64,000 nt of DNA, from contig JAIOYV010000005.1 of NCBI GenBank assembly GCA_021740905.1, forward strand, positions 62,001-126,000, in the 5' to 3' direction. The stretch comes from Bacteroidales bacterium. GTDB taxonomy: Bacteria; Bacteroidota; Bacteroidia; Bacteroidales; M50B96. Of the stretch, positions 1 to 39,304 are shown piece after piece. Made by a program: the position numbers and the translations under genes. The notes under the pieces were generated by a model that saw only the letters and a list, made by a program, of their open reading frames with translations, searched no databases and was not told the origin of the DNA. Within the stretch, counting starts at the first letter, position 1, and each line of letters opens with the position of its first letter.

Positions 1-3000
1 GGTGCAATTTCTGGATGGGATGAGGTTGGCGATACCTGGATGTTTGTGGGAAATGATATAGATATAATGTTACTAGCCAACTTCTCCACTTCTGACACAT
101 TATTCACCATCGGTGATACTATCAATTTTTCCGATCTCTCAACAGGCAGCCCAACAAGCTGGCTTTGGGATTTTGGGGACGGAAGTACAGACACAACTCA
201 AAACCCGGAACACATCTACCAAGCAGCCGGGACTTATTCTGTTTCATTGGTTGTGTCTGATGGTACGAGTAGTGACACATTGGAGATGGTCGATTATGTT
301 TTTGTTGAAGATATTATTTACTCATTGCCTTTCTTTGAAAACTTTGAAGGGCAACCCACAAACTCTGGCTGGACAACCAGCCAGGCAACTGGCTCAGATG
401 GATGGGTTATGGCAGTTGAATATTATGGTGCCTATTGGTATCCAATACCGAGTTCAAATACTTCAATTGCAGCAACATCAAATGATGATCTTTGTTGTTG
501 TGATGCTAGCACAGATTTCCTAATTAGCCCTAAGTTGAATCTATCGGGTTATGGAAGTGTGGATTTATCTTTTGATTCTTTCTTTACAGGTGATTATGGA
601 TCAGAATGTTTTGTATATGTAAGTACTGATGGTACTTTAAACAACCTTCAATTAATTCAATCTATATCAATTCCTGTTAATCTTTCATGGAATAATATAA
701 CCATAAACCTGGATTCATATATTGATAGTATCATTCAATTAGTCTTTCACCACGACGATAATAGCATATCATGTGCCTCTGGATTTTCTATTGATAATAT
801 AAATATTACAGGGAGTATAGTTTCTCCTTCCTTATTGGTCTTGGCTAGCATTTCCGAAGTATCTTGTTTTGTAGGTTCAGATGGTTCAGCAGATTTTACT
901 ATTTCTGGAGGAACTTCTCCATACTCATTCATCTGGTCCAATGGAGAGACCACCGAAGATATTTCAGGTTTGGTAGCCGGAACATATTCGGTTACCGTGA
1001 ATGATGCCGGGACATTGGTTGTTGATACCAGTTTTACAATTTCAGAGCCAAGCGAAATTTTTGTTTCAGGGATTGTAGCTGATGTAAGTGTTTATGGTGG
1101 CAGCGATGGCAGTATTGATATTTCGGTATCTGGCGGAACACCTCCCTATTCCTTTTCCTGGTCGAACAATGCCACAACCGAAGACCTATTTGGCATTGCA
1201 GCAGGCGTTTATGATGTTGAAATTCTGGATGCCAACAGCTGCATGCTCACTGCAATTTATACATTAACCGAACCTATCGACACACTTCAAACAAATGGGA
1301 TTATTGCAAATGCAACCTGCAATTCCTTTTGCAACGGCTCCATCGACCTTACCATTTCAGGTGGCTTAACTCCTTACAATGTGCTTTGGTCGAATGGCGA
1401 AACCACCGAAGACCTGACCGATTTATGTGCAGGTAACTACGATGTAATTGTTACTGACGCAAGCCCAATCGTGGTCGATTCATTTAATTGGAATTTCGTT
1501 ATGCAACCTTACAGTCATGTTATTACTATCAATCAGAATGTTGTAACAGTCAATGGGATTCCTATTGCAAATGGAGATTATATAGGTGTCTTTTATTTGG
1601 ATGGTTCAAATTTGGTATGTGCTGGGTATGTTGAATGCCTAAATTCAATATTTGCAATAGTAGCATTTGGGGATGATAATTTAACACCACAAAAGGATGG
1701 ATTCTATGAAAATGATTCAATTTATTGGAAAGTATGGAAATCAAATCCGGGGGTTGAAATTGATATGGAACCCGGCTATTTTCCTCAGAACACTTTTCAA
1801 GGAATATTTATTAATGGTGGGCTTAGTGTGCTTGATACATTAACTGGAACTTTCAATCAAATCCTAGGTGTTTCAGATACAATTAGTTTCATTATCACAG
1901 AACCTGATGTAATTAGTTTGTCTGAAACAATTGACAATACAAGTACTTTTGGAAATAATGACGGGAGCATTGATATTTCTGTGACCGGTGGCACACCACC
2001 CTATTTCTTTTTATGGTCGAACAATGCCACAACCGAAGACCTGTTTGGTATTGCAGCAGGCAATTACGATGTTCAAATAACGGATGCAAACAGTTGTATA
2101 TTCAGTGCAACGTACACTGTGATCGAACCTTTCGACACGCTTCAGGCGAATGGGATTATTGCAAATACAACTTGTAATTCCGTATGCAACGGCTCCATCG
2201 ACCTTACCATTTCAGGTGGCTTAACACCTTACGATGTGCTTTGGTCGAATGGAGAAACCATCGAGGATATTTCAGGTTTATGCACCGGCACTTACGATGT
2301 TACCGTTTCTGATAATTCTGAGGGAACCCCACCCCCCTTCAATTGGGCTTATGTAAATACGGGTGTCAACCACACTGTGTTGGCCGATCCGGCTGTTGGT
2401 GTGTTTACAATAAATGGCCTTCCTTTGGATTCGGGCGATGTGATCGGGGCTTTCTACGATTCATCAGGCGTAAGTACCTGTGGTGGATACCTTGTTCTCG
2501 GAGGAACCAATACGGCAGTTACTGCCTGGGGGGCCGAGGCCGGAATAGATAATGGTTTTCAGGCTGGAGAAACATTTACCTGGAAAGTCTGGAGAATATC
2601 AGATGGTGCCACTGTGGATATGACAGCTACTTATCATCCTTCGTTTCCTTCGGGGACGAGTGGTACCTATGCCACAAATGGAATGTCGGGGATACTTACC
2701 TTGTCAGGGAGTTATACTCCTATAAGTGCTTCTTCGGTAAACCTTAGTTTTACACTACTTGAACCAGATTCGATTTCAGTGAGTGAAACACTATCGGATT
2801 ACTCCGGTTTTGGTGTTAGTGCGGTCGGAGCTTCCGATGGCTCAATAAATTTAACAGTTTCTGGCGGAACACCTCCCTATGCTTTTATATGGTCTAACTT
2901 TTCCACCGCTGAAGATTTATTGGGTGTTCCGGCAGGCTTGTATGATGTGCAAATTTTGGATGCCAACGGTTGTACGTTCATTTCAAGCTACACCTTGACC

Positions 3001-6000
3001 GAACCTTCCGGTGCAGTGCTTCAGGCAAGTGGGCTTGCAGAGAACGCATCGTGTTATAGTATGTGTGACGGCTCCATCGATCTAACAATTTCGGGTAGTC
3101 AAGTTCCATATTCTGTGTTGTGGTCGAATGGCGAAACCACCGAAGACCTGGCGAATTTATGTTCAGGCACCTATTCTGTGAGCATCGAAGAAGCCAATTC
3201 GGGAGCAGGGAGTTCAACCATGCCGTGGACATTCACCAATACGGGAGCCAACCATAATATATTTGTAGGGTTAGGAGTGGTTACCATTAATAATTCTCCC
3301 ATTGGAGTAGGTGATTACATTGGTGTTTTTTACGATTCAGCTGGTGTTATGGCATGTGGTGGTTATGTATTGTGGGAAGGAAACCCCAATGGAACAGCAG
3401 TTACAGTATGGGGTTCCGAAGCGGGAGCAGACAATGGATTTCAAACTGGCGAAGCATTTACTTGGAAAGTTTGGAAGGCCACAGACGGGGCAATTGTTGA
3501 TATGACCCCGGTATATATGACAATAGGTATGCCCAACCTGGGTACTTATGCCACATTGGGCTTGTCTGGCTTATCATCATTGACAGGAACCTACACACCA
3601 ACAACAGGAACAGGAACCACCCTAAACCTAAGTTTCAACATTACCCAACCCGATGATGCAAGCATATCAGCCATTGTTACCGATGCAAGCACATCAGGTG
3701 GCAGCGATGGGAGTATCGATATAACTGTTTCGGGGGGTACTCCGCCTTATACTTTCGTGTGGCCCAATAATGCTACAAGCGAGGACATATCGGGACTTGT
3801 AGCCGGGTTTTATAACCTGATTGTGTACGATGCCAACTCGTGTTATTATCTCGACACCTTCGAGGTAGCCCAACCTACCTGTATTTCCACTATGGAACTT
3901 ACCCCAGGGTTTTTAGATTTCGGGTCGCAAGAAGTTGCCCCAACACAGGATACTCTTTCCGCTTTGTTGATAAACACCGGAACCTGTACATTGACTATCG
4001 ATAGCCTATTTGGTCTGGAAGGGCCTTTTAGTTTGGATACCGCAGCCCTAAACCTGTCAGGTTTTTTTCCAAACCTGACAGGTGTAAGCATACCCCCCGG
4101 CGACACCATCCCAATCCCCGTTATCCTAAACCAGTATTACACGGCAGGGGCTTATACCGACACCCTAAATATTTTGAATGATGCTTCACTTCCTGCAAGC
4201 CTGAATAATGGATTGGTAGCACAATATATGTTTAGTGGAGGTGCACAAGACGGTTCTGACAATGGTTATCATGGAACAGTAAATGGTGCCACTCTTACAA
4301 ATGATAGATTTGGGAATTTAAACTCAGCCTATAGTTTTGATGGAAATGATTATATTTCAATTAGCTCCTCTTTCATTTTACATCAACCAATAGATGCTTC
4401 AATTTCATTTTGGATGAAAAAAGGAGCAGGATCGAATCAACAGCGAATTTTTTGGTCCAAACTAAATAATTCTGATAATAACAGATTTAATTGTTATACT
4501 GCTGGAACTGTTAATTCTAATATTGGTTTTAACATGGATTATCGGGAAGCTAATACATCAATTCATGGATTATGTTATGAGCAAGTTACCCCCGATTTAT
4601 GGCATCATATTGTGATTAATAGAATAGGTAACCTATATACTGTATACAGGGATAATGCATCGGTCAGTAGTATTTCTGATAACTTTCCTAACTTACCAAA
4701 TTCAATAGGTTGGATAATTGGAGGTCTTAGTCCGTACTCTTTTGAAGGAGTTTTGGATGACATCCGTATATACAATCGTGCACTTTTCGAAACAGAAATC
4801 CAAGCTCTCTATAACGAAGGGACTGGGGCGAATTCAATTGCCCAAATAATCGTCCACGCCCAGCTTACCGATTCCTGCGATATTAGTACAAATGTAAGTA
4901 TGACAGCTTGCGAATCCGATCAAATAATAATAGGAGGTATGCTTGCCGAGACCAGTGGAACATATTACGATACTTTAACGGCTGCCAATGGTTGCGACAG
5001 TGTGGTCATTGTCGACCTTACCATTTATCCAAACCCGGTGGTTGACCTGGGGCCGGATGTGAATTTGTGCCTGGGCAATTCCGTTGTATTGGATCCTGGT
5101 TATGGCTGGACATCCTATCTCTGGAGCACCGCCCAAACCACCCAGACCATCCTGGCATCGGAGCCTGGGGTTTATATTGTTGAAGTATTCGACATAAATG
5201 CATGTGGGGCTACCGACATCATCGAGGTGTTCAATAGTTCGTTCCCTACCCTTTCCTTATCAGGGATCGACAGTTTTTATTGCAACGAAACCCTGACCCC
5301 CACAGATACATTCTTCACCACTCCTTCAGGAGGCGTTTTGACAGGTGCCGGCTTATTGGGCAATGTCTTTTTTCCTTCATCTGTACAGGCAGGCCCGATC
5401 GTATTTACCTATTCCTACACCGATCAATATGGATGTTCGGATACCCTTGCAATAACGACCCAGGTGGGAACAGTGGTCAGCTTTGTTGGGCTTTTGCCTG
5501 AGTATTGTGCTGGCGACCCAGCCTCTTTGTTAATTCCAAGTCCTGTTGGTGGTTATTTTAGTGGAGATGGGATAATTGGCAATGAATTTATCCCCGACTC
5601 AGCCGGCACCGGCACTTACCCAATTTCTTATTACTTTACCGATACCATGGGCTGTGTAAACGAGGCCGGGCATACCGCCGTTGTTTACCCAACGCCTGGC
5701 GACCCGGTTGTGGCCGATGTGTATCAATGTGGCGTTGGCCCTGTCACATTCTCGGCAACAGGTGCGGCAGGAAACTTCCATTGGTACAACAGCCCCGCCG
5801 GGCCGATTGTCTATACCGGGGTCAATTTCACTACTCCATATCTTTCGGCCAGCGACACCTTCTGGGTGCAGTCGGCAAGCCAAACAATTTGTGAGGGAGA
5901 CTTGCTGCCTGTTGTGGCCACCATCGATACTTCCGAGGCACAGCTTACGTTGAGCGATTCCTGCCTCAACCTCCCAACGGTGATGCAGTACCTGAACAGC

Positions 6001-9000
6001 TCGATGAATTTCTCCGTTACCAATGCCGGTTGCGATGCACTTCAAATAAGCAGCATGTACACCACGGACCAGGCCTTCCAGTTGACAGGAACCGGCTTTG
6101 CCATCCCACACGGGGCAACCGAACAATTCATGGTCACTTTTGCACCTCAGCAAGCCGGTACCTACACCGACACAATCTTCATTCAGAATAATATTACCGA
6201 TACTTTTATTTGTTTGAATGCGGTTGCGCTGGATGCACCTGCAATGTCCGTAGGTCCTACTTTCTTAAATGCAAATCTAAACTGTGGTGGGATTTCCGCC
6301 GAGCAAATAGTCATTTATAACAATGGCCTGGGTTCTTTAGATTATCAGTTTAGCATCAGTTCATCGACCTGGATTTCTTCCCAATCGGTGAACGGTATGA
6401 TAGTGGGGAGTGATACCGATACCCTTGTGTTCGATATAAATTCGAGTGGGCTGAGTGCCGGGATTTACTCTGTCAATATTACGATCAGCTCAAACGACCC
6501 GCAAAACCCTGTGTCGATTATCCCGGTCACTTTAACGGTATCGGGCAATTCCGGTATTTCCTTATCGGCAGCTGCCCTTAATTTTGGATCTATCATGCAA
6601 TATACTTCTACAACGCAAAGCCTGTATATCGAAAACACAGGTTGCAATGTTTTAAATGTCAGCAATATTTCCAGTACAAATGCTGATTTCGCATCGGCCT
6701 ATTCTTCGCAGCTTGTCGGGCCATATAGCTCCGAATTGTTGACCATAACTTTTACTCCCAGCCTTCCGGGCCAGTACACCGATACCCTCCATATTTACAA
6801 CAATGCCGTTGATACCTTCGTGGTATTGTCAGGTTATGCTGATGGGGCACCCGTGATGGCTTATTCCACCACTACCCAAAGTTCAACTTTGATATCTTGC
6901 AACGATACCGATTCGATGGATTATTCATTTATGAACAATGGCCTTGGCGATTTAACCTATTCGGTGTCGAATATAGCCAGCCTACCATCTTGGGTCGTCT
7001 TGCAAAATACCTCGGGGACAATTGTGCCCGGCGATTCGGCCAACTTATCTTGTCTTGTCAATGCCGATGGATTATCATCCGGGACATACCAGGCGCAGAT
7101 CACTATGTCTTTCAACGATCCGATCACACCAAGCCTTACTCTGTTATGTAACATCGTAGTGGTGGGGTCTCCCGAAATTGCGATATCTGCCGACACCCTG
7201 TTGTTTGATACTACCATGCAATGGACGGGCGATTCTAAACTTCTTATTATTGATAACGATGGTTGTGCGCCACTTGAAATTACGGGAATTGTGAATAGTT
7301 TGAGCGAATTCGCACCAGCTTTAACCTCTCTTACAGTTCAACCTTTTGGACAATCCTACCTTGAGGTTTATTTCAACCCTGTGACTTCGGCTGCCACAAG
7401 CTTTTCCGACACTTTGCACCTGATTACAAATGCCGGAAATGTGGAGGTTAATTTACTTGCCGCATCAATCGGCGCACCTATAGTTTCAGTTAAACCCACT
7501 TCCATTATTTCAACGGTGGGCTGTATGGAAACTGCGACCGGGCAATTTACCATCTCCAATACAGGGACCAGCCCGTTGAACTTTGCGACCAGTATTTCAC
7601 CGGCACAGGTAACGGTGAACGGTACGGTTTGGCTATTGGCTTCAACGGCGACAACGATTGTTGGCCCTGGAGATTCAACCATAATAAACCTTGCTTTCAA
7701 TGCAACGGGGATCAATGTGGGCATGTACGAAACCCAAATCAGCATAGCAACCAACGACCCTCTGACTCCTGGTTTGTCGGTGCCAGTTTCGATGATTGTG
7801 ACTGGATTCCCCGAGATTGATGTGACACCCCTTGCGGTCGAATTCGATTCGGTGAACCTCAGCACAACAGCCAACAATTATGTATCGATTTATAATCTCG
7901 GTTGTGATACCCTGTTTTTAGATAGCATCCGTACTTCGATCCCTGAATTTACGCTTACCCAGCCATCGCTAAATTATATTTTGCCGGGTGATTATATCGA
8001 TGTGAATTTATGGTTTACCCCTACTTTGCTCACTCATTATTGGGGAACGCTCCAGGTTTATAACAACGATGTGTACCAGGAAGCGAGCTTGCACGGTTAT
8101 GGGTTGGGCGATCCAAATGTCACGGTTTCGGCCGATACTCTTTGGAACGAAGCCATAAACTGCAACGAGTTACATAGTAGCGATCTTATAATCCGAAACG
8201 AAGGCCAGGGAATATTGAATTTCTCGATAATCGAGCAATCAAACTATTTATCCCTTTCGACCACAAGTGGAACTTTGTTGGCGGGCGATACGGTGATTGT
8301 TACGGTCACTTTCAATGCCACCGATCTTCCTACAGGGACCCATTCGTATAACCTTACCATCAACACCAACGATTTGCTTACCCCCTATTTCTATATCGAT
8401 ACTGAATTTGAGGTATTGAACGCCAACACTATTTTTGTTGATCTGGGGAGCGATTCAACCACTTGCGCCATCCCGGTTGCTATTGATGCCGGGTTGTTCT
8501 CATCCTATAACTGGAGTACCGGGTCGGTAAGCCAAACAATTACAGCCTACTCAACGGGCGTGTATAGCGTAAGCGTAACCGATGCAAACGGCTGCCATTC
8601 CACCGATCAGGTTGAGATGACAATTCATCCGCTGCCCTCGGTAAGCTTTTCGGGTTTGGATGCGAGCTACTGCCTCGATATTTCATTCTATCCCTTAACA
8701 GGAAGCCCTGCCGGAGGCATCTTCTCAGGCAATGGGATTTCGGGCAACACCTTTGTACCTTATACGGCAGGTGTGGGCAATCACACCATCAATTATTCTT
8801 ATGTTGATGCGCATGGATGTGCCAATTCGGCCAACCAAACTACTTCTGTTATTCAATCAACGCCGGTAAGCATCATCGGCCTGGCTTCGGCATATTGTTT
8901 CAATGCTCAGATTGTAACTATTTCGGGCAGCCCATCGGGTGGTCAGTTAACTGGAGATGGTATTATTGGGAATACCTACAATCCAGCCTCGAACGGCCCT

Positions 9001-12000
9001 GGTATTTTCGATATCACCTATAATTATGATGATGGCCAATGTACCAATTCGATTGTTTACACAGTCGAGGTGGGTGATTCCATCAACCTTGATTATTCGG
9101 TTAGCGATATTAATTGCAATGGCGAAAACACGGGTGCTATCGACATTACTGTTTCGGGCGGTACAACGCCTTATGCCTACACCTGGGGTAACGGAAGCAC
9201 AAACGAAGACCAACAATTTATTCCTGCCGGGAATTATTCCCTCACCGTAAGCGACCAAACGGGATGTGCGGCTGCCGGGAATATCACGGTTACCGAAGCC
9301 GATGCCATCGCAACCACCCAGACCCTGACAAACCCACTTTGTCCTGGTTCTGCCAACGGTTCTATTTTATTGACCGTATCGGGCGGGGTGTCGCCATACT
9401 CCTTTAGTTGGGGCACGGGCGCGACAAGCCAATCGTTGGGCAGCCTGGCTTCTGGTTCTTATTCGCTTACCATTACCGATGCGGCTTCCTGTTCGATTAT
9501 GCGAAATTTCAACCTAAACGATCCTGCGGCAATGACGATCAATCCTACCATAACGCATGTGAATTGTTATGGGGCAAACGATGGAAGCATTTCTGTTGAG
9601 GTGTTTGGTGGTACCGGTGTTGTCAGCTATTTATGGTCGAATGGCGGAACAACTTCGGCGATAAACAATTTAGCTGCCGGAACGTATTCCCTTACTGTTA
9701 CCGATGCAAATGGATGTTCGACAAACGCTCAATACTTAGTTGACACACCATCAGCCATCGCTGTAAATGCAACGGTTACCGATGCTAATTATCCGGGAAT
9801 GGCAACTGGCGAGATTGTCCTTTCTGTGACAGGCGGAGTTGCGCCTTATGCTTATAGTTGGGACAATGGATCGACTATAAATCACCTGACATCGCTTCTT
9901 GCTGGGATTTATCCTGTCAATATTACCGATGCCAACAATTGTTCTTTTGTTGATAGCTTCCTAATAAGCGAACCCGCTACCTATCCTGAAATTGAAGTTC
10001 TGGCAACCAGCTTATCGGGTCACGCATATTGTGGCGAGGCTATTATTGATTCATTCCTGATAAGCAATACAGGCACCGATACATTGGAAGTCAGTATAGC
10101 TGAATCCTTGAACTGGTTCTTCGTGCCGGAACCCAATGTTTCAATAGCACCCGCACAGTCCCTTTGGGTCGAAATTAATTATGATGGTGGTTTTGCTTTT
10201 GGGACTCATTCTGGCAACATCGAAATCAACAGCAACGATTTAAACGCAACGCCCATAATCCTTCCTGTTGAATTATTGATTGAATGTGCCTTTTGTGATC
10301 TTTCTACTACTTCGCTTAATTTTGCTACCACTGTTGAAGGGTTTTCTGCAACTGATACTTTTATTCTGAAAAATATAGGGAACATGGATATGGATGTGTC
10401 GTCGATGACCACCACAGGAAACGCATTCATCATTACCACTCCCTTTACAGGCATCCTTTTGGCTGGAGCAAGTGTAAACATCACAGTTGCTTTTAGCCCG
10501 GCCAGTGATGGTAGTTTCTCCGGCTCCTTGAATATTTCGAGCAATAGCAATACCCCTTGTTCTGCCATTTCCTTATCAGGAATAGGCTTAGAGGCTATCC
10601 ATAGTTGGGAGTTGCTTTGCGGGGATCCCGATTTTGGTTTTACTGACATCAATACAGGAGGGGTTAGGCCATGTACGATTCATAATACAGGAACCTTGCC
10701 TGTTACCATTACCGATTGTGCGATTACCGATACAGCCTTTAGCCTGTCGCTTTGCAGCCTTACGGTGGCTCCCGGTGTTTATCAACCTGTCGATATTTAT
10801 TTCAACCCAACAGAGATTGCCCCTTATGCAGGGCAGGTTGGCTTTACCGATGCCACCGGGCTTACCTCTTATGTTTCGGTTTTTGGACAGGGATATTATC
10901 AATCGCAAGCCCCGGTTATTAGTTTCAGTACGGCGGCTAACTTTGGCGGCACTACTGGGGTATGGCCTACGATTGCTTCGTCGAGTACCTGGTTCCAGTA
11001 CGCCGTGGTTTACACCGATGCCGATAACAATCCACCTATGTTGGGCTACCCGAAATTGGGCATCGACAATAATTACGACACCGATTTTAGCGACCCAATG
11101 GACGAAATGATCAGCCTGGCCGAAGCCGATCCTACCGATCAGGATTATACCGATGGAAAGACCTACCTGCATTTTACCCAGTTGGGATTGGGCGATCATG
11201 GCTATCAGTTCTTTGCCTACGATTCGCTGGGGAATATGGCCACAAGTGCAAACACGGGCTATGTTTCCGATCCAACCGTGAGCAACGATCTCTTAGACCT
11301 GAGCATTTATGCCAACGATATTATTTTCTCGAACCCCTCGCCCGATGTGGGCGAACAGATTACCATAACGGCCAATATCCATAATTACACCGATTATCCA
11401 GGCAACAACGTAAAGGTATATTTTGTGATAGATAGTGTAATTGTGGACAGCCAAATGGTTTCAACTATTCAGCCGCAAACTTCGACCAGTGTTTCCATTC
11501 AGCATTATTTCAGCTATTGGGATTACTACCCGGTTAAAGTGTGGGTCGATCCATTGAATACAATCCAGGAAGACAACGAGTTGAATAATTTCGCCATCCG
11601 GCCCATTACCGTTGGGAATGTGCCGCTGCCACAGATTCTCTTTGTATCGACGGCCTTGTCGCCCAGCACGGTTAATGCTGGGACAGTTGCGAGCATCCAT
11701 TATTCAGGCCAGGTGCAGTATGATGCTCTGGCGGGCAACCAGCCTTGTGTGGGTGCTTTCATAACCATGACTAACCAGCAAACCGGGCAGGTATTCACCA
11801 CTCATTCGGTTTCGGGCGGGTATTTCAACATCTACTTCCCGGCACCGTATTCGGCAGGTACTTGTACCATTAATTCAACTGTTACTGATTACACCCTCAA
11901 TGGTCAATCGGGCAACGAATACCTGACCGTAACTCCGGTACTTGGTCAAGTAAATCTCAATCAATTTGTCGATCTTCGGATCACAAATTCGTGGTTGCAA

Positions 12001-15000
12001 TGGGGCAGTGGTTGTGCTGTTGAAGGAAGCCAAGTCAGCATAAATGGAAGCTTTACCAATCAGGGCAACCTCTCGGCAAGCAATTTCTTTGTGGTCTATT
12101 ATGTCGATAATGTGGCGACCGACAGCATTTTGGTCCCTTATCTTGGGGCAGGGCAAAGCATGGGCATCAGCAAAAGCATGACTTTGGTTGAAGGCACCCA
12201 TTCCTTTGCCGTTACGTTGGATGCAACAAACTCGGTGGCCGAATTGAATGAATCGAACAACTATGCCAGCAATTCGAAATACATTTATCCATCGGAGCCA
12301 GATCTTGCCCCCACCGATATTGTGTTTAGTGACAATTCGCCTTACATCGGCCAGACCATCAACATCGACTTTATTGTAAACAACCTGCAATGTGCCACTT
12401 CCGATACGGTAACAGCCCTGATCCTGGATGCAATTACCGGTGATGTGCTGGGTACTTTGGCTATAAATAGTGTTGGCGGCCTATCGCAAACCAGCGTTTC
12501 GATGAACCATAGTTTTGCCACGGCAGGGTTTAAGTTTATCAAAATTACTGTTGATAGTTATAATTCGCTGTTTGAAACCAACGAGTCCAATCAGGTAATG
12601 ACAAAGAGCCTGTATGTTGAACAATCGCTGCCCGAATTAAGCGCGTCGAACATCTCTGTGTCGAACATTGGTACTATGCCCGGCGATAACATGTTTGTTG
12701 TGGCAACCATCGCGAACACAGGCGATAGTGCAGCCCATGATTTTTATGTAAGCTTTGCGGTGGATGGCCAAAACATTGCCGATTCGGTTTGGATCGATAC
12801 CCTTTTGGCATACGATAGCCGGATAGTTGAATCGGGCTTGTTTACCCGCGACTCTTGCCCACAAACAGTTACTGTGGTGGCCGATGCAGGTGCTACTGTC
12901 TATGAACTGAACGAGGCGAACAACATTGCCAGCAGGGAATTGGGCTATGGTTTAAATGCCAAGAAATACTATATAACAAATAGTAGTTACAGCAGGCTAC
13001 AGGTCGATTTGGGATCTTCGTTAAATGCAAAGGCATATCTGAAAAACAACGGGGAGTTTACAAGCCAGCAGGTGCCGGTTTCCTATTTTGCCGATGGTGC
13101 CTATATCGGTACCGATGTTGTGCCCTTTGTAAGCCCAGGTGGACAGGTCTTGACCCATATCGATCATGAATTTCTGACACCCGGTAACCATGAGATTTTG
13201 GTGAAGGTGGACTTTATCCCACCCGATTCAATCTTCTTCTGCGAAAGCAACGAAGGCGACAACTCTCATGTTATATATGTGAAAGTGAAAGCACAATTGC
13301 CCGACCTGGTGGTTTATTCCGAGCATATATCGCCCAGTACCATCAATCCCGATCCAGGCGATGCAGTGGAAATCACCACATCGTTTTGGAATATTGGAAA
13401 TGTGGATGCAGGGCCATTTACGGTCGAGTTTTTCATAAACGATAATCCTTTGGGAAGCCCGGTACAGGTATCAGGGTTGTTGGCCCACGAAGATTCATCG
13501 GTACCATGCACTCAATTTTATATTCCCGATTCAGCTGGCGTTGATATTATCAAAGTTAAGTTGGATGCAGCCGATTTAGTGGATGAAGAAGAAGACTATG
13601 CCAACAACGTGGCCACAAGGGCACTGGTTGTAGGCCTTGCGCCCGATTTCACCTTTGAGCCTTTGTGCCTGAGTATGTCCAACCCAAATCCTAATCTGGG
13701 CGACTTTGTGTTGATCTACCCAAAAATTAGGAACGATGGTAGCGAAGCAGGATTGGCAACCGTGAACTTGTATTCGGTGATCGGTTTCGACACTACCTTT
13801 GTTGGGGCAACTTCGGTTTTCCTCGGCGCAAACTCTGGTCTAAGCAACCCGATATTTGTACAATGGACAGCCACAGCCACACTTGGTGAAATTTACATGG
13901 AGATTGTCGAGGTTACCCCACAGGAGTACAATCCGTACAACAATTCCTGTTCCTCTGGATTTGGGAACCTGCCACTTAATGTTTGGCTCACAACCCTTGA
14001 CTCGGCAGTTTGTCCAGGTGGGGCGGTCAGCCTTGTTGCACACACCGTTGATGGCACGGGCAACAATACCTATAGCTGGTGGGCCGGCACCACTCTAATC
14101 TATCAGGGACCCGATTCGGTATTGCTTGCTACCATTTCGGAGAACACGGTTTTTATTGTCGAAGTGACCGATGGCATCAGCACAGTTAGCGATACCATAG
14201 AACTGAATGTTCATCCAGAAATTGAATTTACGGTAGGAGCGGCCCAACCCTCTTGTTTTGGAACAAGCGATGGCTCTATTGATATTATACCCGCTTTGGG
14301 TGCCGGGTCTTTTACCTACGAATGGTCCAATGGCGAAACCAGCGAAGACCTGGCCAATTTGATGGCCGGAACCTATTCCTATACCCTGACAGATATCTAT
14401 ACCTGCCAAAGCATGGGGCAAGTCGAAGTTGTTGAACCAGCCGAACTAATGCTGAACGAGGATATATATTACCCCAATCAGCCAAATATTGCCGATGGTG
14501 CCATACTGTTGAATGTTTCGGGAGGTACTGCCCCGTACAATTATTTCTGGAGCAACTCGGAAACCACATCGTATATATATACATTGTCGGCGGCCATTTA
14601 TGCCGTTACTGTAAGCGACAATAATGCTTGCACAAGGGTTGACAGTTTCCAGATTGTATTCTACGATCAACAGCATATTCCTTTGCATACAGGCTGGAAC
14701 CTAATATCTACGTACCTGCAATTGGTCGATTCCAATGTAGTGGAAGTGTGTAGTGGGATCGTATCGAACCTTGCCCTTATGAAAGATGACGGCGGTTCTT
14801 CATACTGGCCATTTTTTGAAGTCGATCAGATTCATTATTTTGAATTGGGAGAGGGCTATCAGATGAAAATGAATGTTCTGGATACGCTCCACCTCATAGG
14901 CAACATTGCACCCGATCATTACCCTTTTCCAATTGATGCCGGTTGGAATATGATCGGCTATTTGCGCACAGACACTACAAATTGTGTAGATATGTTTAGT

Positions 15001-15810
15001 GCGGTTGCTAACTATATTATTCTGGTGAAAAATGAAGATGGACAAACCTATTGGCCTTTCTTTGCCCTTAACGGGATAGACGATATGTATCCCGGCAAAG
15101 GTTACCAGTTAAATGCTCTTTCGTCGTTCATGTTCTCCTATCCGCTACAGACATCCAGTCCTACCAAGTCAGATGTTCAGGTCAAGCACCCACAGCATTT
15201 CAAAAAGATCCAGCAAACTGGCAACAACATGACCCTCGGCCTAATGCTCGAAGGCCTCGATGCAAGGCCCGGCGATGAGATTGCTGTGTTCAGTACATCT
15301 GGATTGTTAGTTGGTGCAGGAGCGGTAAATGGCTCTTTCTCATCCATCGCAATATGGGGCAACGATGACCTGACCGATGAAGTAGACGGCCTGCTACCAG
15401 GCGAAGAATTTGAAATCAGAATTTGGGATTCCCAAACAGGGCAGGAGAGGAGCCTTGTGATTGACGAATGGATTGAAGGTGATGGCAGCTATGAAATAAA
15501 CAAGATTGCAGTAGCCGGAATTTCTAATTTCCAATTTCCAATTTCTGGCTTCGCTCTCTTCCAAAACACCCCCAACCCTTTTACCAACGAAACTGAATTC
15601 TCTTTCTATCTTCCACAAGATTGCAAGGTTGATTTTGATATCTTCAATATTGTAGGCGAAAAAGTGGCCGTTCTAATCTCGGAAGAAATGATGAAAGGCA
15701 AACACAGCCTTGTTTTCAACAGCCAAGACCTGGCGGCAGGTACTTACTATTACAGGCTGAAAACACCGGATTTTGAGGAAACAAAAAAGATGGTGGTGGT
15801 GAAAAGATAG
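1..15810 (+). CDS. Giant modular T9SS surface adhesin, SprB-repeat type (5' partial)
   Basis: Reading frame 1 is open from the first base, so the N-terminus lies outside; 5269 residues are visible. Modules in order (numbered from base 1, approximate): PKD 24-104 (WDFGDGS), jelly-roll/MAM-like 108-274, SprB repeat 280-350, three SprB-pair units 354-1220, SprB to 1294, an ASH domain split by a LamG domain 1295-1625, Ig-like 1626-1978, four ASH-BACON pairs 1979-2810, Ig-like to 3026, four SprB 3027-3325, BACON/ASH 3326-3635, about seven CARDB-like domains 3762-4660, two SprB 4741-4893, two GWN(L/M)I modules 4894-5057, a GDEIAVF module 5072-5170, and a type A T9SS sorting domain 5181-5269 (FQNTPNPF, ending MVVVKR). 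Such proteins are exported by T9SS and attached at the surface, where SprB relatives act in adhesion or gliding. Its exact role is inference. A hairpin but no T-run follows the stop. Confidence 0.9.
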   Translation, partial: GAISGWDEVGDTWMFVGNDIDIMLLANFSTSDTLFTIGDTINFSDLSTGSPTSWLWDFGDGSTDTTQNPEHIYQAAGTYSVSLVVSDGTSSDTLEMVDYVFVEDIIYSLPFFENFEGQPTNSGWTTSQATGSDGWVMAVEYYGAYWYPIPSSNTSIAATSNDDLCCCDASTDFLISPKLNLSGYGSVDLSFDSFFTGDYGSECFVYVSTDGTLNNLQLIQSISIPVNLSWNNITINLDSYIDSIIQLVFHHDDNSISCASGFSIDNINITGSIVSPSLLVLASISEVSCFVGSDGSADFTISGGTSPYSFIWSNGETTEDISGLVAGTYSVTVNDAGTLVVDTSFTISEPSEIFVSGIVADVSVYGGSDGSIDISVSGGTPPYSFSWSNNATTEDLFGIAAGVYDVEILDANSCMLTAIYTLTEPIDTLQTNGIIANATCNSFCNGSIDLTISGGLTPYNVLWSNGETTEDLTDLCAGNYDVIVTDASPIVVDSFNWNFVMQPYSHVITINQNVVTVNGIPIANGDYIGVFYLDGSNLVCAGYVECLNSIFAIVAFGDDNLTPQKDGFYENDSIYWKVWKSNPGVEIDMEPGYFPQNTFQGIFINGGLSVLDTLTGTFNQILGVSDTISFIITEPDVISLSETIDNTSTFGNNDGSIDISVTGGTPPYFFLWSNNATTEDLFGIAAGNYDVQITDANSCIFSATYTVIEPFDTLQANGIIANTTCNSVCNGSIDLTISGGLTPYDVLWSNGETIEDISGLCTGTYDVTVSDNSEGTPPPFNWAYVNTGVNHTVLADPAVGVFTINGLPLDSGDVIGAFYDSSGVSTCGGYLVLGGTNTAVTAWGAEAGIDNGFQAGETFTWKVWRISDGATVDMTATYHPSFPSGTSGTYATNGMSGILTLSGSYTPISASSVNLSFTLLEPDSISVSETLSDYSGFGVSAVGASDGSINLTVSGGTPPYAFIWSNFSTAEDLLGVPAGLYDVQILDANGCTFISSYTLTEPSGAVLQASGLAENASCYSMCDGSIDLTISGSQVPYSVLWSNGETTEDLANLCSGTYSVSIEEANSGAGSSTMPWTFTNTGANHNIFVGLGVVTINNSPIGVGDYIGVFYDSAGVMACGGYVLWEGNPNGTAVTVWGSEAGADNGFQTGEAFTWKVWKATDGAIVDMTPVYMTIGMPNLGTYATLGLSGLSSLTGTYTPTTGTGTTLNLSFNITQPDDASISAIVTDASTSGGSDGSIDITVSGGTPPYTFVWPNNATSEDISGLVAGFYNLIVYDANSCYYLDTFEVAQPTCISTMELTPGFLDFGSQEVAPTQDTLSALLINTGTCTLTIDSLFGLEGPFSLDTAALNLSGFFPNLTGVSIPPGDTIPIPVILNQYYTAGAYTDTLNILNDASLPASLNNGLVAQYMFSGGAQDGSDNGYHGTVNGATLTNDRFGNLNSAYSFDGNDYISISSSFILHQPIDASISFWMKKGAGSNQQRIFWSKLNNSDNNRFNCYTAGTVNSNIGFNMDYREANTSIHGLCYEQVTPDLWHHIVINRIGNLYTVYRDNASVSSISDNFPNLPNSIGWIIGGLSPYSFEGVLDDIRIYNRALFETEIQALYNEGTGANSIAQIIVHAQLTDSCDISTNVSMTACESDQIIIGGMLAETSGTYYDTLTAANGCDSVVIVDLTIYPNPVVDLGPDVNLCLGNSVVLDPGYGWTSYLWSTAQTTQTILASEPGVYIVEVFDINACGATDIIEVFNSSFPTLSLSGIDSFYCNETLTPTDTFFTTPSGGVLTGAGLLGNVFFPSSVQAGPIVFTYSYTDQYGCSDTLAITTQVGTVVSFVGLLPEYCAGDPASLLIPSPVGGYFSGDGIIGNEFIPDSAGTGTYPISYYFTDTMGCVNEAGHTAVVYPTPGDPVVADVYQCGVGPVTFSATGAAGNFHWYNSPAGPIVYTGVNFTTPYLSASDTFWVQSASQTICEGDLLPVVATIDTSEAQLTLSDSCLNLPTVMQYLNSSMNFSVTNAGCDALQISSMYTTDQAFQLTGTGFAIPHGATEQFMVTFAPQQAGTYTDTIFIQNNITDTFICLNAVALDAPAMSVGPTFLNANLNCGGISAEQIVIYNNGLGSLDYQFSISSSTWISSQSVNGMIVGSDTDTLVFDINSSGLSAGIYSVNITISSNDPQNPVSIIPVTLTVSGNSGISLSAAALNFGSIMQYTSTTQSLYIENTGCNVLNVSNISSTNADFASAYSSQLVGPYSSELLTITFTPSLPGQYTDTLHIYNNAVDTFVVLSGYADGAPVMAYSTTTQSSTLISCNDTDSMDYSFMNNGLGDLTYSVSNIASLPSWVVLQNTSGTIVPGDSANLSCLVNADGLSSGTYQAQITMSFNDPITPSLTLLCNIVVVGSPEIAISADTLLFDTTMQWTGDSKLLIIDNDGCAPLEITGIVNSLSEFAPALTSLTVQPFGQSYLEVYFNPVTSAATSFSDTLHLITNAGNVEVNLLAASIGAPIVSVKPTSIISTVGCMETATGQFTISNTGTSPLNFATSISPAQVTVNGTVWLLASTATTIVGPGDSTIINLAFNATGINVGMYETQISIATNDPLTPGLSVPVSMIVTGFPEIDVTPLAVEFDSVNLSTTANNYVSIYNLGCDTLFLDSIRTSIPEFTLTQPSLNYILPGDYIDVNLWFTPTLLTHYWGTLQVYNNDVYQEASLHGYGLGDPNVTVSADTLWNEAINCNELHSSDLIIRNEGQGILNFSIIEQSNYLSLSTTSGTLLAGDTVIVTVTFNATDLPTGTHSYNLTINTNDLLTPYFYIDTEFEVLNANTIFVDLGSDSTTCAIPVAIDAGLFSSYNWSTGSVSQTITAYSTGVYSVSVTDANGCHSTDQVEMTIHPLPSVSFSGLDASYCLDISFYPLTGSPAGGIFSGNGISGNTFVPYTAGVGNHTINYSYVDAHGCANSANQTTSVIQSTPVSIIGLASAYCFNAQIVTISGSPSGGQLTGDGIIGNTYNPASNGPGIFDITYNYDDGQCTNSIVYTVEVGDSINLDYSVSDINCNGENTGAIDITVSGGTTPYAYTWGNGSTNEDQQFIPAGNYSLTVSDQTGCAAAGNITVTEADAIATTQTLTNPLCPGSANGSILLTVSGGVSPYSFSWGTGATSQSLGSLASGSYSLTITDAASCSIMRNFNLNDPAAMTINPTITHVNCYGANDGSISVEVFGGTGVVSYLWSNGGTTSAINNLAAGTYSLTVTDANGCSTNAQYLVDTPSAIAVNATVTDANYPGMATGEIVLSVTGGVAPYAYSWDNGSTINHLTSLLAGIYPVNITDANNCSFVDSFLISEPATYPEIEVLATSLSGHAYCGEAIIDSFLISNTGTDTLEVSIAESLNWFFVPEPNVSIAPAQSLWVEINYDGGFAFGTHSGNIEINSNDLNATPIILPVELLIECAFCDLSTTSLNFATTVEGFSATDTFILKNIGNMDMDVSSMTTTGNAFIITTPFTGILLAGASVNITVAFSPASDGSFSGSLNISSNSNTPCSAISLSGIGLEAIHSWELLCGDPDFGFTDINTGGVRPCTIHNTGTLPVTITDCAITDTAFSLSLCSLTVAPGVYQPVDIYFNPTEIAPYAGQVGFTDATGLTSYVSVFGQGYYQSQAPVISFSTAANFGGTTGVWPTIASSSTWFQYAVVYTDADNNPPMLGYPKLGIDNNYDTDFSDPMDEMISLAEADPTDQDYTDGKTYLHFTQLGLGDHGYQFFAYDSLGNMATSANTGYVSDPTVSNDLLDLSIYANDIIFSNPSPDVGEQITITANIHNYTDYPGNNVKVYFVIDSVIVDSQMVSTIQPQTSTSVSIQHYFSYWDYYPVKVWVDPLNTIQEDNELNNFAIRPITVGNVPLPQILFVSTALSPSTVNAGTVASIHYSGQVQYDALAGNQPCVGAFITMTNQQTGQVFTTHSVSGGYFNIYFPAPYSAGTCTINSTVTDYTLNGQSGNEYLTVTPVLGQVNLNQFVDLRITNSWLQWGSGCAVEGSQVSINGSFTNQGNLSASNFFVVYYVDNVATDSILVPYLGAGQSMGISKSMTLVEGTHSFAVTLDATNSVAELNESNNYASNSKYIYPSEPDLAPTDIVFSDNSPYIGQTINIDFIVNNLQCATSDTVTALILDAITGDVLGTLAINSVGGLSQTSVSMNHSFATAGFKFIKITVDSYNSLFETNESNQVMTKSLYVEQSLPELSASNISVSNIGTMPGDNMFVVATIANTGDSAAHDFYVSFAVDGQNIADSVWIDTLLAYDSRIVESGLFTRDSCPQTVTVVADAGATVYELNEANNIASRELGYGLNAKKYYITNSSYSRLQVDLGSSLNAKAYLKNNGEFTSQQVPVSYFADGAYIGTDVVPFVSPGGQVLTHIDHEFLTPGNHEILVKVDFIPPDSIFFCESNEGDNSHVIYVKVKAQLPDLVVYSEHISPSTINPDPGDAVEITTSFWNIGNVDAGPFTVEFFINDNPLGSPVQVSGLLAHEDSSVPCTQFYIPDSAGVDIIKVKLDAADLVDEEEDYANNVATRALVVGLAPDFTFEPLCLSMSNPNPNLGDFVLIYPKIRNDGSEAGLATVNLYSVIGFDTTFVGATSVFLGANSGLSNPIFVQWTATATLGEIYMEIVEVTPQEYNPYNNSCSSGFGNLPLNVWLTTLDSAVCPGGAVSLVAHTVDGTGNNTYSWWAGTTLIYQGPDSVLLATISENTVFIVEVTDGISTVSDTIELNVHPEIEFTVGAAQPSCFGTSDGSIDIIPALGAGSFTYEWSNGETSEDLANLMAGTYSYTLTDIYTCQSMGQVEVVEPAELMLNEDIYYPNQPNIADGAILLNVSGGTAPYNYFWSNSETTSYIYTLSAAIYAVTVSDNNACTRVDSFQIVFYDQQHIPLHTGWNLISTYLQLVDSNVVEVCSGIVSNLALMKDDGGSSYWPFFEVDQIHYFELGEGYQMKMNVLDTLHLIGNIAPDHYPFPIDAGWNMIGYLRTDTTNCVDMFSAVANYIILVKNEDGQTYWPFFALNGIDDMYPGKGYQLNALSSFMFSYPLQTSSPTKSDVQVKHPQHFKKIQQTGNNMTLGLMLEGLDARPGDEIAVFSTSGLLVGAGAVNGSFSSIAIWGNDDLTDEVDGLLPGEEFEIRIWDSQTGQERSLVIDEWIEGDGSYEINKIAVAGISNFQFPISGFALFQNTPNPFTNETEFSFYLPQDCKVDFDIFNIVGEKVAVLISEEMMKGKHSLVFNSQDLAAGTYYYRLKTPDFEETKKMVVVKR
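1060..3660 (+). repeat. Three tandem ~860-bp units, each two SprB repeats with a nested module
   Basis: Within the giant gene, the pair 'GGTPPY SprB' plus 'NGSIDLTISGG SprB' occurs three times, starting near 1060, 1920 and 2770. Corresponding points (the codons for GSIDLTISGG near 1340, 2197 and 3073) are about 857 and 879 bases apart. Units 1 and 2 are nearly identical at DNA level over long stretches, for example around 1162 and 2019; unit 3 is more diverged. In each unit the second SprB is interrupted before its last strand by a module of about 130 residues. Confidence 0.8.
4052..4083. repeat. 13-bp perfect inverted repeat inside the adhesin coding sequence
   Basis: Arms 4052-4064 (acctgtcaggttt) and 4071-4083 (aaacctgacaggt) are exact reverse complements around a six-base loop. 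The region is translated as NLSGFFPNLTG inside an ASH domain. It has the same form as the intergenic palindrome at 35531-35564, so it looks like a dispersed palindrome caught in frame. Confidence 0.75.
5935..8430 (+). repeat. Four ~207-residue ASH-BACON super-repeats
   Basis: Four consecutive units of about 620 bases begin near 5935, 6556, 7171 and 7807. Each has an ASH-type half (L.FD/G..., N.GCD.L, FTP....YTDTL.I.NN) followed by a BACON-type half (NNGLG.L.YS, SGTI..GD, G.Y...I.I..NDP..P). The alternation is regular and conserved at protein level, but DNA identity between units is low, so the array is old. Confidence 0.7.
9080..9975 (+). repeat. Four tandem SprB repeats
   Basis: Four copies of about 74 residues follow each other, each with G...G.I.L.V.GG..PY.Y.W and AG.Y.L.(V/I)TDA..C. 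Unlike the copies near 1060-3660, none of them has an inserted module. Confidence 0.75.
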
Positions 15811-16395: not shown

Positions 16396-19300
16396 ATGAA
16401 ACATTTTACTATTTGTATAAGAAGAAGTTACTTGACTGTAGCTGTTCTTTTTATGAGTATCCTTTTTTCTTCCCTTTGTGCCCAAAATCCTGTATTGGTA
16501 ATCGACCTGGATGGGAATACAAATTCGGGGCCGGCCATTCAAACCGCCGTTCAGAATAATTCCGTGGGGGTCGATTATGTGACCAGTTTCCCCACCACTC
16601 TAACCGGTTACTCAACAGTTTTTGTTTGCCTGGGGGTTTATAATAATAATGTAACGCTGTCAAGTACCCAGGGAACAAGCCTTGCCGCATTTCTAAACCA
16701 AGGCGGTAGTTTGTATATGGAAGGTGGCGATACCTGGGACTATGATCCTCCAACTGCTGTTCACCCTTATTTCAACATCAATGGCTTAGAGGATGGGAGT
16801 GCAAACCTGAATCAATTGATTGGGCAATCTGGCACCCTTTCGGAAGGTTTCAGTTTTACGTATACGGGCGATAACAGCTATATCGACCAATTTGAACCGA
16901 TTGCCCCTGCAATGACAATTTTTTCAAATATGCCAACCCTTTACGATTGTGCAGTTTCGTACAATGCCATGACTTATAAAACCATTGGTGCATCTTTCGA
17001 GTTTGGCGGCTTGCAGGACGATACAGTTACGGGTAACACAAAAGACGAATTGATGCACAAATATTTGCAATTCCTTTCTGTTATCGCTTCAACCAATTTT
17101 GATATTGGGATTGTCGAAGTCATAAGCCCTATCAATAACTTAAACGAGGGCGATACAATCCCTGTTGCAGTTGTATTGAAGAATTTTGGTAGCGATACGC
17201 TTTCCAATGCTACATTGGCCTTTGCAATCGATACAGGGGTCGCGGTAACTTTTGCCTGGAGTGGAAGCCTTTCGTTTAACGAAACCGATACTGTGACTAT
17301 CGGTGAATTGGTAATCCCATCTGCTACGTATGATCTTTGCGCATGGACCATTTATCCGGTTGATACGGTACTTGAAAACGACATGATTTGTGAATCATTG
17401 TCCATTAACCCTGCCCTTGATGCCGGTATCCTGGAAGTATATGAACCTACTGGCACATATATAGAAGGTAGCTTGGCTGATGTGATTGTGGAAATTAAAA
17501 ATTTTGGGATCGACAGCTTGTTTGCCATGGATGTCGCTTATTCTCTCAATGGTGCTACCAATGTCACCTTTGCATGGACGGGAGCTTTGGCCCCAGGCGA
17601 AACCGACTCGATTTCCTTAACCTCATTTACAGTGCCCCTTGGCATTTCTCAGCTTTGTGCTTTTACCTTGCTGAACGGCGACCAAGTACCTATGAACGAC
17701 AGTATGTGCGTAAACTTTTTTGGAAGCCCTACTCAAGACGCAGGGTTGATCGAAATTTATGAGCCATCGGGAAGCTATACAGAGGGCGATACAATTAATG
17801 TGGTCGTTGAAATTAAAAATTTTGGTGCCGATACATTATTCGCCATGGATGTTGCCTATTCGGTAAATGGTGGTTTAAACGTAACCCAGGCTTGGACAGG
17901 GACATTGGCCCCGGGCGGAATTGATGTTGTGCAGCTACCCATGTTGATAGCCCCACTGGGTGCTTCCCAAATATGTGCTTTTACTCAATTGATTGGCGAC
18001 CAGCAAACCGCCAACGACAGCCTGTGCAAGAATTTTTACGGAAACCCGGCCAACGATGCAGGCATGGTAGAAATCCTGTCGTTGCCCCAAATCTCGGGTG
18101 AATATAATGTGTATGCACGTATTGTGAATTCCGGTGTTGCAAACCTACTTGCTGTTGACCTCGAATGGACAATCAATTCCATGGCCCAGGACACTGTGGA
18201 ATGGACGGGGAACCTGGCAAGCAACGATATTTCTGATCTGATTTTATTAGGCTCTTACCTTTTCTCTGATACCACCTACAATATCAAGGTAAATACCTCG
18301 ATGCCTAATGGAGCGTCCGATATTTTCAATACAGATGATACTCTACAAACTGATATGGAATTCATTGCCTCGGCTTTAGTCGATACTTTCCCTTATTGCG
18401 AAAGTTTTGAAGGCGATCTTGGCAATTGGATCCAAAATACCTGGGACGATATGGATTGGTCATTCGATTCGATTGCTACTCCTACGCCAAGCACGGGACC
18501 GACATCAGCATATAACGGAACCTATTTCATATATACAGAAGCCACTCCTCAGCAAAACGGAGATGAGGCAGGCATCGAAGCCATGTTCGATTTGTCCACA
18601 TTTACCTATCCCGAAATTGCATTTAGCTACCACATGTATGGCAACCAAATGGGGTCGTTGCACGTGGATATATTCGATAGTATCTGGCACGAAGATGTTT
18701 GGGTAATGTCAGGAAACCAGGGTAATCAATGGTATCAGGCTAGTGTTCAAATTTATGAATTTGGGAATTTGGAAAATGTGGTAATCCGTTTCCGGGGAGT
18801 AAGGGGGAATGGTTCACGCAGCGATATGGCACTCGATAATTTCTGCATTACCGAGGGGATCGCTACTAATCTTTCCTTAAATTCTTTTATTGGTCCTTTA
18901 GCAATCTGTGCCACAGCTTCCGAATCTGTTTTTGTTGAAGTAGAAAACTTGGGGGGGAACACTCAAACTGATATTCCTTTTGTACTGGAAATTATTAATC
19001 CTTTAGGAACAACAACAACGCTCAATGATACTTTATGGGGTGATTTGATGTTTGGAGATATTGAAGAAATGCAGTTTTCTTTGGTTGATTTTTCATTGAC
19101 GGGAACATACATGCTGACTTGCTATTTTACATTGGCAGGCGATCAGGTCACAAGCAATGATACTTTGTCGATGCAACTCCAAAGCATCCAAACAATATCA
19201 TCGTTGCCATTTACGGATAGTCTCGAAACTGGTAATTCTTATTTCAAGTTGAATTTTAGCACCCTCTCTTTTGCTGAACACACAGGCGATACCTTGAACA

Positions 19301-38518: not shown

Positions 38519-39038
38519 TAGTTCCACCAACACTGAAGCTTCGGTGCAAGAAAAGTTGAGAAAGTATTTGAGGTAAGTAGGTAAGTAGAGTGAAAAACTT
38601 CCGAAAACAACTTGGCTATTGTCTGATACCGAATATAATCCGCTATATCCCCCTGGGGCAAAGTTTCCCTCGTTCTCCATTGTGGTGATATAGTTTGCAT
38701 GACTACTAAATTCTTGTCCAGTTGAAGTCTTCCAGATTTTCGACTTTATAGGCTCGCTGTTAGCAAAGCCATTGTTCAGGCGCATCGTTTGCAAGTATTG
38801 AAATCTGGTTGCCTGTCCATTGCCCATAACCGCCACAGGCAAGCCCGCCTCCGTTTACATCGTAAAACACCCCGAGGTAATCGCCCACTGAAACTTGCAC
38901 CCCGTCGATGGTTACAGGAATTGTACCCTGCATAAGGATGGTGTGTGTAGTTCCGGTATTGGTGTATGTCCAGGAAATCTGAGAATAGCTTAAACCGGCT
39001 GAAACCATCACCAACAAAAGGAAAGTAATCTTTTTCAT
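38519..39038 (-). pseudogene. Frameshifted relic of a secreted protein with the GDxIGxF module
   Basis: From ATG at 39038 the frame encodes a signal peptide (MKKITFLLLVMVSAGLSYSQ) and then the module also found in the giant adhesin (WTYTNTGTTHTI, VSVGDYLGVFYDVNGGG, ACGGY). The frame stops at 38760 after DAPEQWLC. From about 38777 the next frame continues the match (NNGFANSEPIKSKIW, then GGYSGLYSVS to about 38614). A one-base loss or two-base gain therefore breaks the gene. After about 38614 the homology fades, there is no T9SS domain, and the frame runs without stop into the antisense of the exported thioredoxin gene, so the 3' end is truncated too. Confidence 0.7.
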
Positions 39039-39215: not shown

Positions 39216-39304
39216 GAGACGCAAGCCTTGCGTCTCTACGATCTGAATTAATAAACTGCCTGAGAGCAATTCGTTCTTTGGTAGAGACGCAAGGTTTGCG
39301 TCTC
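39216..39304. repeat. Two GAGACGCAA palindromes
   Basis: gagacgcaa/ttgcgtctc arms of nine bases with three-base loops occur at 39216-39236 and 39284-39304. The same arm sequence, with gagacgcga variants, is found at 55895-55967, so this is a dispersed family. No gene overlaps them. Confidence 0.85.

Follow-up and report, generated by a model that had tools for sequence, protein, structure and literature searches.

The stretch of DNA analysed here (the window) comprises 64,000 nucleotides of a Bacteroidales genome (assembly GCA_021740905.1, contig JAIOYV010000005.1, positions 62,001 to 126,000). It opens with a giant open reading frame (ORF) for a type IX secretion cargo, in which three SprB repeats are each split before their last strand by copies of one domain, here called N. 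The Pfam families recognised in this ORF are Kelch, PKD, SprB, Laminin_G_3, HYDIN-type Ig (immunoglobulin), CARDB and Por_Secre_tail. The SprB model (PF13573) collects 221 bits in eight stretches of window positions 1-4200, against a curated cut-off of 28 bits, and the split repeat at 3007-3651 reaches 30.6 bits on its own; judged by these scores, the host repeats are genuine SprB repeats. A sorting domain at the C-terminus of the ORF scores above the cut-offs of both PF18962 (30.1 bits, cut-off 27) and TIGR04183 (33.8 bits, cut-off 23). One further Pfam match, to GvpL/GvpF at ~3604-3759 (24.1 bits, cut-off 23.6), overlaps SprB sequence and was judged to be due to chance. The features are listed below, with the limits of N taken from a hidden Markov model (HMM) iterated over the source genome and its scores given as independent E-values (i-E).

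1-15810, + strand: giant type IX cargo ORF, the last 5269 residues of a 6331-residue open frame that begins upstream of the window
1051-1275, + strand: plain SprB repeat, first half of unit 1
1276-1461, + strand: portion of split SprB repeat 1 that precedes the insert (CNSFCNGSIDL ... LCAGNYDVIVTDA)
1489-1842, + strand: N domain copy 1 (HMM i-E 1.8e-38)
1882-1905, + strand: last strand of split SprB repeat 1 (ISFIITEP)
1906-2130, + strand: plain SprB repeat, first half of unit 2
2131-2316, + strand: portion of split SprB repeat 2 that precedes the insert
2344-2703, + strand: N domain copy 2 (HMM i-E 3.9e-42)
2743-2766, + strand: last strand of split SprB repeat 2 (LSFTLLEP)
2767-3006, + strand: plain SprB repeat, first half of unit 3
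3007-3195, + strand: portion of split SprB repeat 3 that precedes the insert
3226-3582, + strand: N domain copy 3 (HMM i-E 3.9e-44), the query for both structure predictions
3628-3651, + strand: last strand of split SprB repeat 3 (LSFNITQP), residues 205-212 of the predicted model
3652-3876, + strand: plain SprB repeat after the three units
14656-15204, + strand: 'GWNLISTY' double repeat without a Pfam family, part of the C-terminal module
15205-15522, + strand: C-terminal-type N domain, N' (HMM i-E 9.3e-27)
15571-15798, + strand: type IX C-terminal sorting domain (PF18962 / TIGR04183)
38624-38978, - strand: broken stand-alone N in two frames, with the frame change inside N and a signal-peptide-like start upstream at ~39040

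With the insert included, the whole split repeats span 1276-1905, 2131-2766 and 3007-3651. An initial annotation, made from the letters of the window, had described three SprB repeats split in this way by a shared segment, and all of the motifs that it ascribed to the segment are in place. It had taken the insert to be one segment of about 130 residues; this is now resolved into a domain of ~120 residues and two flanking linkers of ~10-20 residues each, rich in Gly, Ser, Thr, Pro and Asn. Its two further copies are also found, namely the related module near the adhesin C-terminus (N' aligns to N with an hhalign probability of 99.7 and E 1e-26) and the broken stand-alone gene. Beside that broken gene lie two 19-base near-perfect palindromes, AGACGCAAGGCTTGCGTCT, at 39217-39235 and 39285-39303; with four strand-matches against 0.01 expected by chance, they look like an intergenic repeat element. 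Another broken N, interrupted by an in-frame TAG, was seen elsewhere in the source genome (G000:C128:121572-121946).

Domain N is abundant, portable and lacks a curated family

In the three window copies, N gave no match above cut-off in Pfam or NCBIfam. When 99 aligned members were compared with the same databases, only SprB recurred, from the host part, and the remainder were single weak matches; the initial annotation, which knew of no named family, was thus right on this point. No relatives of N were found in PHROGs or in viral contigs, and a sequence comparison with PDB chains returned nothing convincing for N, the only matches (phage decoration and neck proteins) being to the SprB half. 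In the literature that was searched, no description of domains nested in SprB repeats was found. Domain N and its split-display form in SprB repeats of type IX cargo appear to be undescribed.

Nested and free copies of N share the key residues W5, H14, GD33-34, G37, F39, C48, G50, G75, E80, W84 and S118 (numbering of window copy 3), which marks the domain as portable and suggests, from sequence conservation, a single function in all settings. Cys48 is conserved in ~96% of N and is usually the sole cysteine of the exported domain; exactly one cysteine is present in the N of 49 of 59 nested copies.

N is far commoner than the five copies first noticed. A profile search at E ⩽ 1e-8 found 135 copies in the 6.5 Mb source genome, and 46, 36 and 23 copies in three other genomes of the same family. 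In a sample of the phylum, 27 of 395 genomes carry N (the window's genome included), the others with at least one to at least six copies each; this search scored at most 11 candidates per genome, so that its copy counts are lower bounds. Among the named loci are Ignavibacteria, Cloacimonadota, Saprospiraceae, Flavobacteriales and one Myxococcales metagenome-assembled genome. The source-genome regions that were examined hold 140 N domains, and their spread over 65 ORFs and many contigs makes assembly contamination an unlikely explanation.

Four settings of N recur: nested in SprB, as the first domain past a signal peptide, in tandem, and in a C-terminal module ordered N, ~187 residues with GWS/STY motifs, N' and sorting domain. 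Several other N proteins also carry a type IX sorting domain. Clear-type nested copies were found in the window's genome and in JAPLDU, JAGYLP and JAIPAR. From the loci sampled, N looks like the older and wider domain, of which nesting would be a derived use.

Some observations on the type IX setting may be added. The source genome, with at least 150 sorting domains, encodes two full-length PorU-type sortases above the NF033707 cut-off (G000:C48:7997-11263 and C65:19559-22819), and the window itself holds a neighbouring type IX cargo of 1950 residues with MAM domains (16396-22245). Dozens of type IX proteins, some of them from outside the bacterial family, likewise have a GWN..STY double-repeat region between N and N'; Pfam has no family for this region. 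One lipoprotein-like protein (L143:3693-5405) fuses N to DUF4842 and gave no match to a type IX sorting domain.

Many copies of N are nested at one point of the SprB repeat

By a strict rule that uses HMM geometry alone, 41 copies of N in 22 ORFs are nested in SprB, with the SprB model mostly interrupted at ~59-66 of its 75 positions; a looser rule gives 59 nested copies, some of them doubtful. A single protein can hold as many as six such split repeats. Scoring the rejoined SprB halves with the SprB HMM failed, because the linkers disrupt local alignment, and a motif for the last strand plus its proline was used instead. In the tails of the 41 nested copies this motif scored a median of 15.4 bits, versus 0.9 for shuffled tails, and 36 of the 41 lay above their own 95th percentile. 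Among the tails of other N copies, the corresponding fractions were 8/48, 4/20 and 4/50. The SprB strand therefore resumes after the insert, as was first proposed for the window.

Insertion is not confined to one loop or to one kind of insert. In four copies, N enters SprB at model positions ~38-44, in a different loop that follows the W-S strand, and the remaining repeat then continues; two of them are in L126 (residues 4624 and 5271), and the others are in L048 and L072 (L072/L174). In L138 (677-1294), an unrelated insert of ~190 residues without a Pfam match shares one SprB interruption with N. A tree of the SprB halves (58 columns) needs 33 changes versus 50 when shuffled; this does not separate one insertion event from many, and a single origin of the nesting is possibly compatible with it.

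The split frames also carry a cysteine mark. The DANGC cysteine of ordinary SprB repeats is located in the interrupted loop and is often absent from split repeats. The motif LC.G occurs in 27 of 63 split versus 25 of 611 plain repeats (odds ratio 17.6, Fisher p 4e-17; p 1e-15 when restricted to the same proteins), these p-values being optimistic since the repeats are related. A C...C motif near the start of the repeat is present only alongside LC.G (36 versus 0). A reasonable guess from these sequence patterns is that an alternative disulfide may staple the opened repeat.

Predicted structure of the split repeat

An AlphaFold2 model of a split repeat (99 alignment rows) has a mean predicted local distance difference test score (pLDDT) of 93.5, with the SprB strands at residues 6-62 and 205-212 and N at 82-194. 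In VIA-align, residues 1 to 215 of this model align as one Ig/PKD domain with ~70-76 residues aligned and N skipped, from which the two SprB halves are predicted to complete one fold. Modelled alone, N is a compact all-beta domain of eight strands (pLDDT 96.8, predicted template modelling score (pTM) 0.90). N is thus predicted to be a separate compact domain outside an intact Ig-like SprB fold, in agreement with the initial proposal. A Foldseek search of the PDB and viral libraries gave no match at E ⩽ 0.001; the rows for transthyretin, CTLA-4 and pilin were set aside as ordinary beta-sandwich likenesses.

Unit duplication and probable exchange of N

The three window copies are contiguous units, each made of a plain and a split SprB repeat. 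Their split frames are 56-77% identical to one another and at most 48% identical to plain repeats, indicating that the unit was duplicated and that N was not inserted three times. The initial view of a domain repeatedly entering one loop hence does not hold within the window.

The N domains tell a different story from their frames. Compared as DNA, the split frames of units 1 and 2 share 84% identity, rising to as much as 97% within 60 bases, and identity falls to 33-47% at the linker/N border; N1 and N2 themselves are 47% identical in DNA and 30% in protein. N1 shares 30-36% identity with N2 and N3 and is closer to N domains of other proteins, and a single clade of N1 to N3 is rejected by the approximately unbiased test (p-AU 0.02). 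Across 56 nested copies, pairwise identities of the two halves of N correlate at 0.45, whereas those of frame and N correlate at only 0.10-0.24 (difference, within-N minus frame-to-N, 0.28; 95% interval 0.11-0.43). The histories of frame and N are partly decoupled across the nested copies, and judged from these sequence comparisons module exchange is probably the best account of the mismatch.

Proposed role of N

On balance we favour the reading that N is a side knob on the SprB stalks of type IX cargo, with a likely ligand-binding or adhesive role. N would be a portable extracellular beta-sandwich-like domain. The chain would leave the Ig-like SprB repeat past its second-last strand and run through a flexible linker into N, and a second linker would bring it back to finish the SprB fold. 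N would then stick out sideways from a long filament on the cell surface, with the stalk left intact. Adhesion seems its likeliest role, with N attaching to a ligand borne by surfaces, particles or other cells; many knobs per stalk could confer avidity. The socket would be retained while the knob is swapped between proteins through recombination.

A wider version of this reading is somewhat more tentative: specialised split SprB frames may serve as sockets of a plug-in display, in which an undescribed binding domain, present in ~135 copies in one genome, is shuffled among about a dozen giant adhesins per genome.

Several results weigh against these proposals. The pTM of the split-repeat model is 0.73, which leaves the orientation of N relative to SprB unfixed. 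In the tighter test, a clade of N1 and N2 alone is not significantly rejected (p-AU 0.11), and the mismatch could stem from N evolving faster in place of exchange. The occurrence of N as a first domain, in tandem or beside the C-terminal module also fits a structural or anchoring part.

The best-surviving alternative, which we nevertheless consider unlikely, is that N is a structural part of the stalk, a spacer that thickens, spaces or cross-links filaments through N-to-N contacts, with SprB nesting as one of several tolerated positions. The many positions of N and its tandem arrays of three to five copies (L121, L132 and L170, with the maximum of five in L121) are consistent with such a part. 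The core of N is also conserved uniformly, with no obviously variable face, and the nearly invariant Cys48 has no conserved partner and could link molecules. Yet a stalk part has no need of a flexible double linker or of a split host repeat, and two further observations weigh against it: nesting recurs at a single point and the host fold is then completed, and N and frame partly reassort.

Less probable still, though also a surviving rival, is a role of N at the secretion or anchoring end, with its basic task in the conserved C-terminal module (N, GWS repeat, N' and sorting domain) and the nested copies as by-products of its abundance. N' forms nearly one clade (two changes on the tree) and typically lies directly before the sorting domain, 27 N copies of the source genome are located before the GWS repeat, and the C-terminal module occurs in other families of the phylum, outside the bacterial family (L177, L179, L180 and L182), and so may be the older setting. 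Against this, many N domains are separated from the C-terminus by thousands of residues or are found in proteins that begin with N, and most of the at least 150 sorting domains found in the source genome belong to ORFs without a listed N.

A reading of N as a PLAT/C2-like domain that binds lipids or membranes is very improbable. The top structural match of N lies in the cyanobacterial 9R-lipoxygenase 5ek8, in its N-terminal beta domain region (residues 38-166, a PLAT-like region of lipoxygenases), with Z 7.5 over 110 residues (runner-up Z 5.8), but Z of 7-8 is typical of models without a clear relative, the root mean square deviation of 4.0 Å and identity of 10% are in the chance-match range, and Foldseek gives E 0.017 and a template modelling score of 0.36.

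Returning to the side knob, the display position on a stalk that the initial annotation had suggested gains from the use of one SprB point in many proteins, the second loop, the different insert in L138 and the partial reassortment of N and frame; given the other settings of N, display is one of several uses. Taken together, that interpretation is partly supported: it was largely right in kind, with the window copies now explained by unit duplication and probable module exchange. A large domain family of Bacteroidota surface proteins that is lacking in curated databases gains a testable role, and the clean border between frame and module renders the exchange of knobs among adhesins directly testable.

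Comparison with known systems

The host repeats exceed the family cut-off of the SprB repeat (PF13573) known from the Flavobacterium gliding adhesin SprB. They differ from it in their split form, which holds an inserted domain and in which LC.G and C...C often replace the cysteine of the interrupted loop. The grappling-hook protein GhpA of Aureispira (9flw, 9flv and 9fly), likewise a giant Bacteroidota protein, has Ig-like domains that resemble the SprB half (Z 6.4-7.5); this likeness is confined to the host fold, a very common one, and N has no sequence match among PDB chains.

A close parallel is with the RTX adhesins, in which ligand-binding domains are recognised by their emergence from split Ig-like domains and are projected off the stalk axis, and one module, from AhLap, was demonstrated to bind fucosylated glycans (PMC12077191). 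As in AhLap and FrhA (PMC12077191, PMC10865825), a giant repetitive adhesin here has split Ig-like domains out of which a further domain buds before the chain returns to them, and different modules occupy such sockets. The Ig-like host is completed after the insert, and the insert is predicted to be compact and separate. Because the anatomy of RTX split domains is thus found in a type IX adhesin, ligand binding is the leading hypothesis for N; if the rule transfers, interrupted repeats would reveal the binding modules of giant SprB-type proteins.

The differences are equally clear. A Pfam scan of the ORF found none of the RTX families, and its C-terminus carries a type IX sorting domain, not RTX repeats or a type I signal. 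Secretion is by type IX here and by type I there, the host is an SprB repeat, the inserted module is another domain, and the chain leaves before the last strand, whereas in one AhLap case it leaves after the first. In addition, many proteins of a single genome share the arrangement here, with up to six occurrences per protein. Split-domain display itself is known from RTX adhesins; here it is built with another domain, host and secretion route, and may be an independently evolved type IX counterpart.

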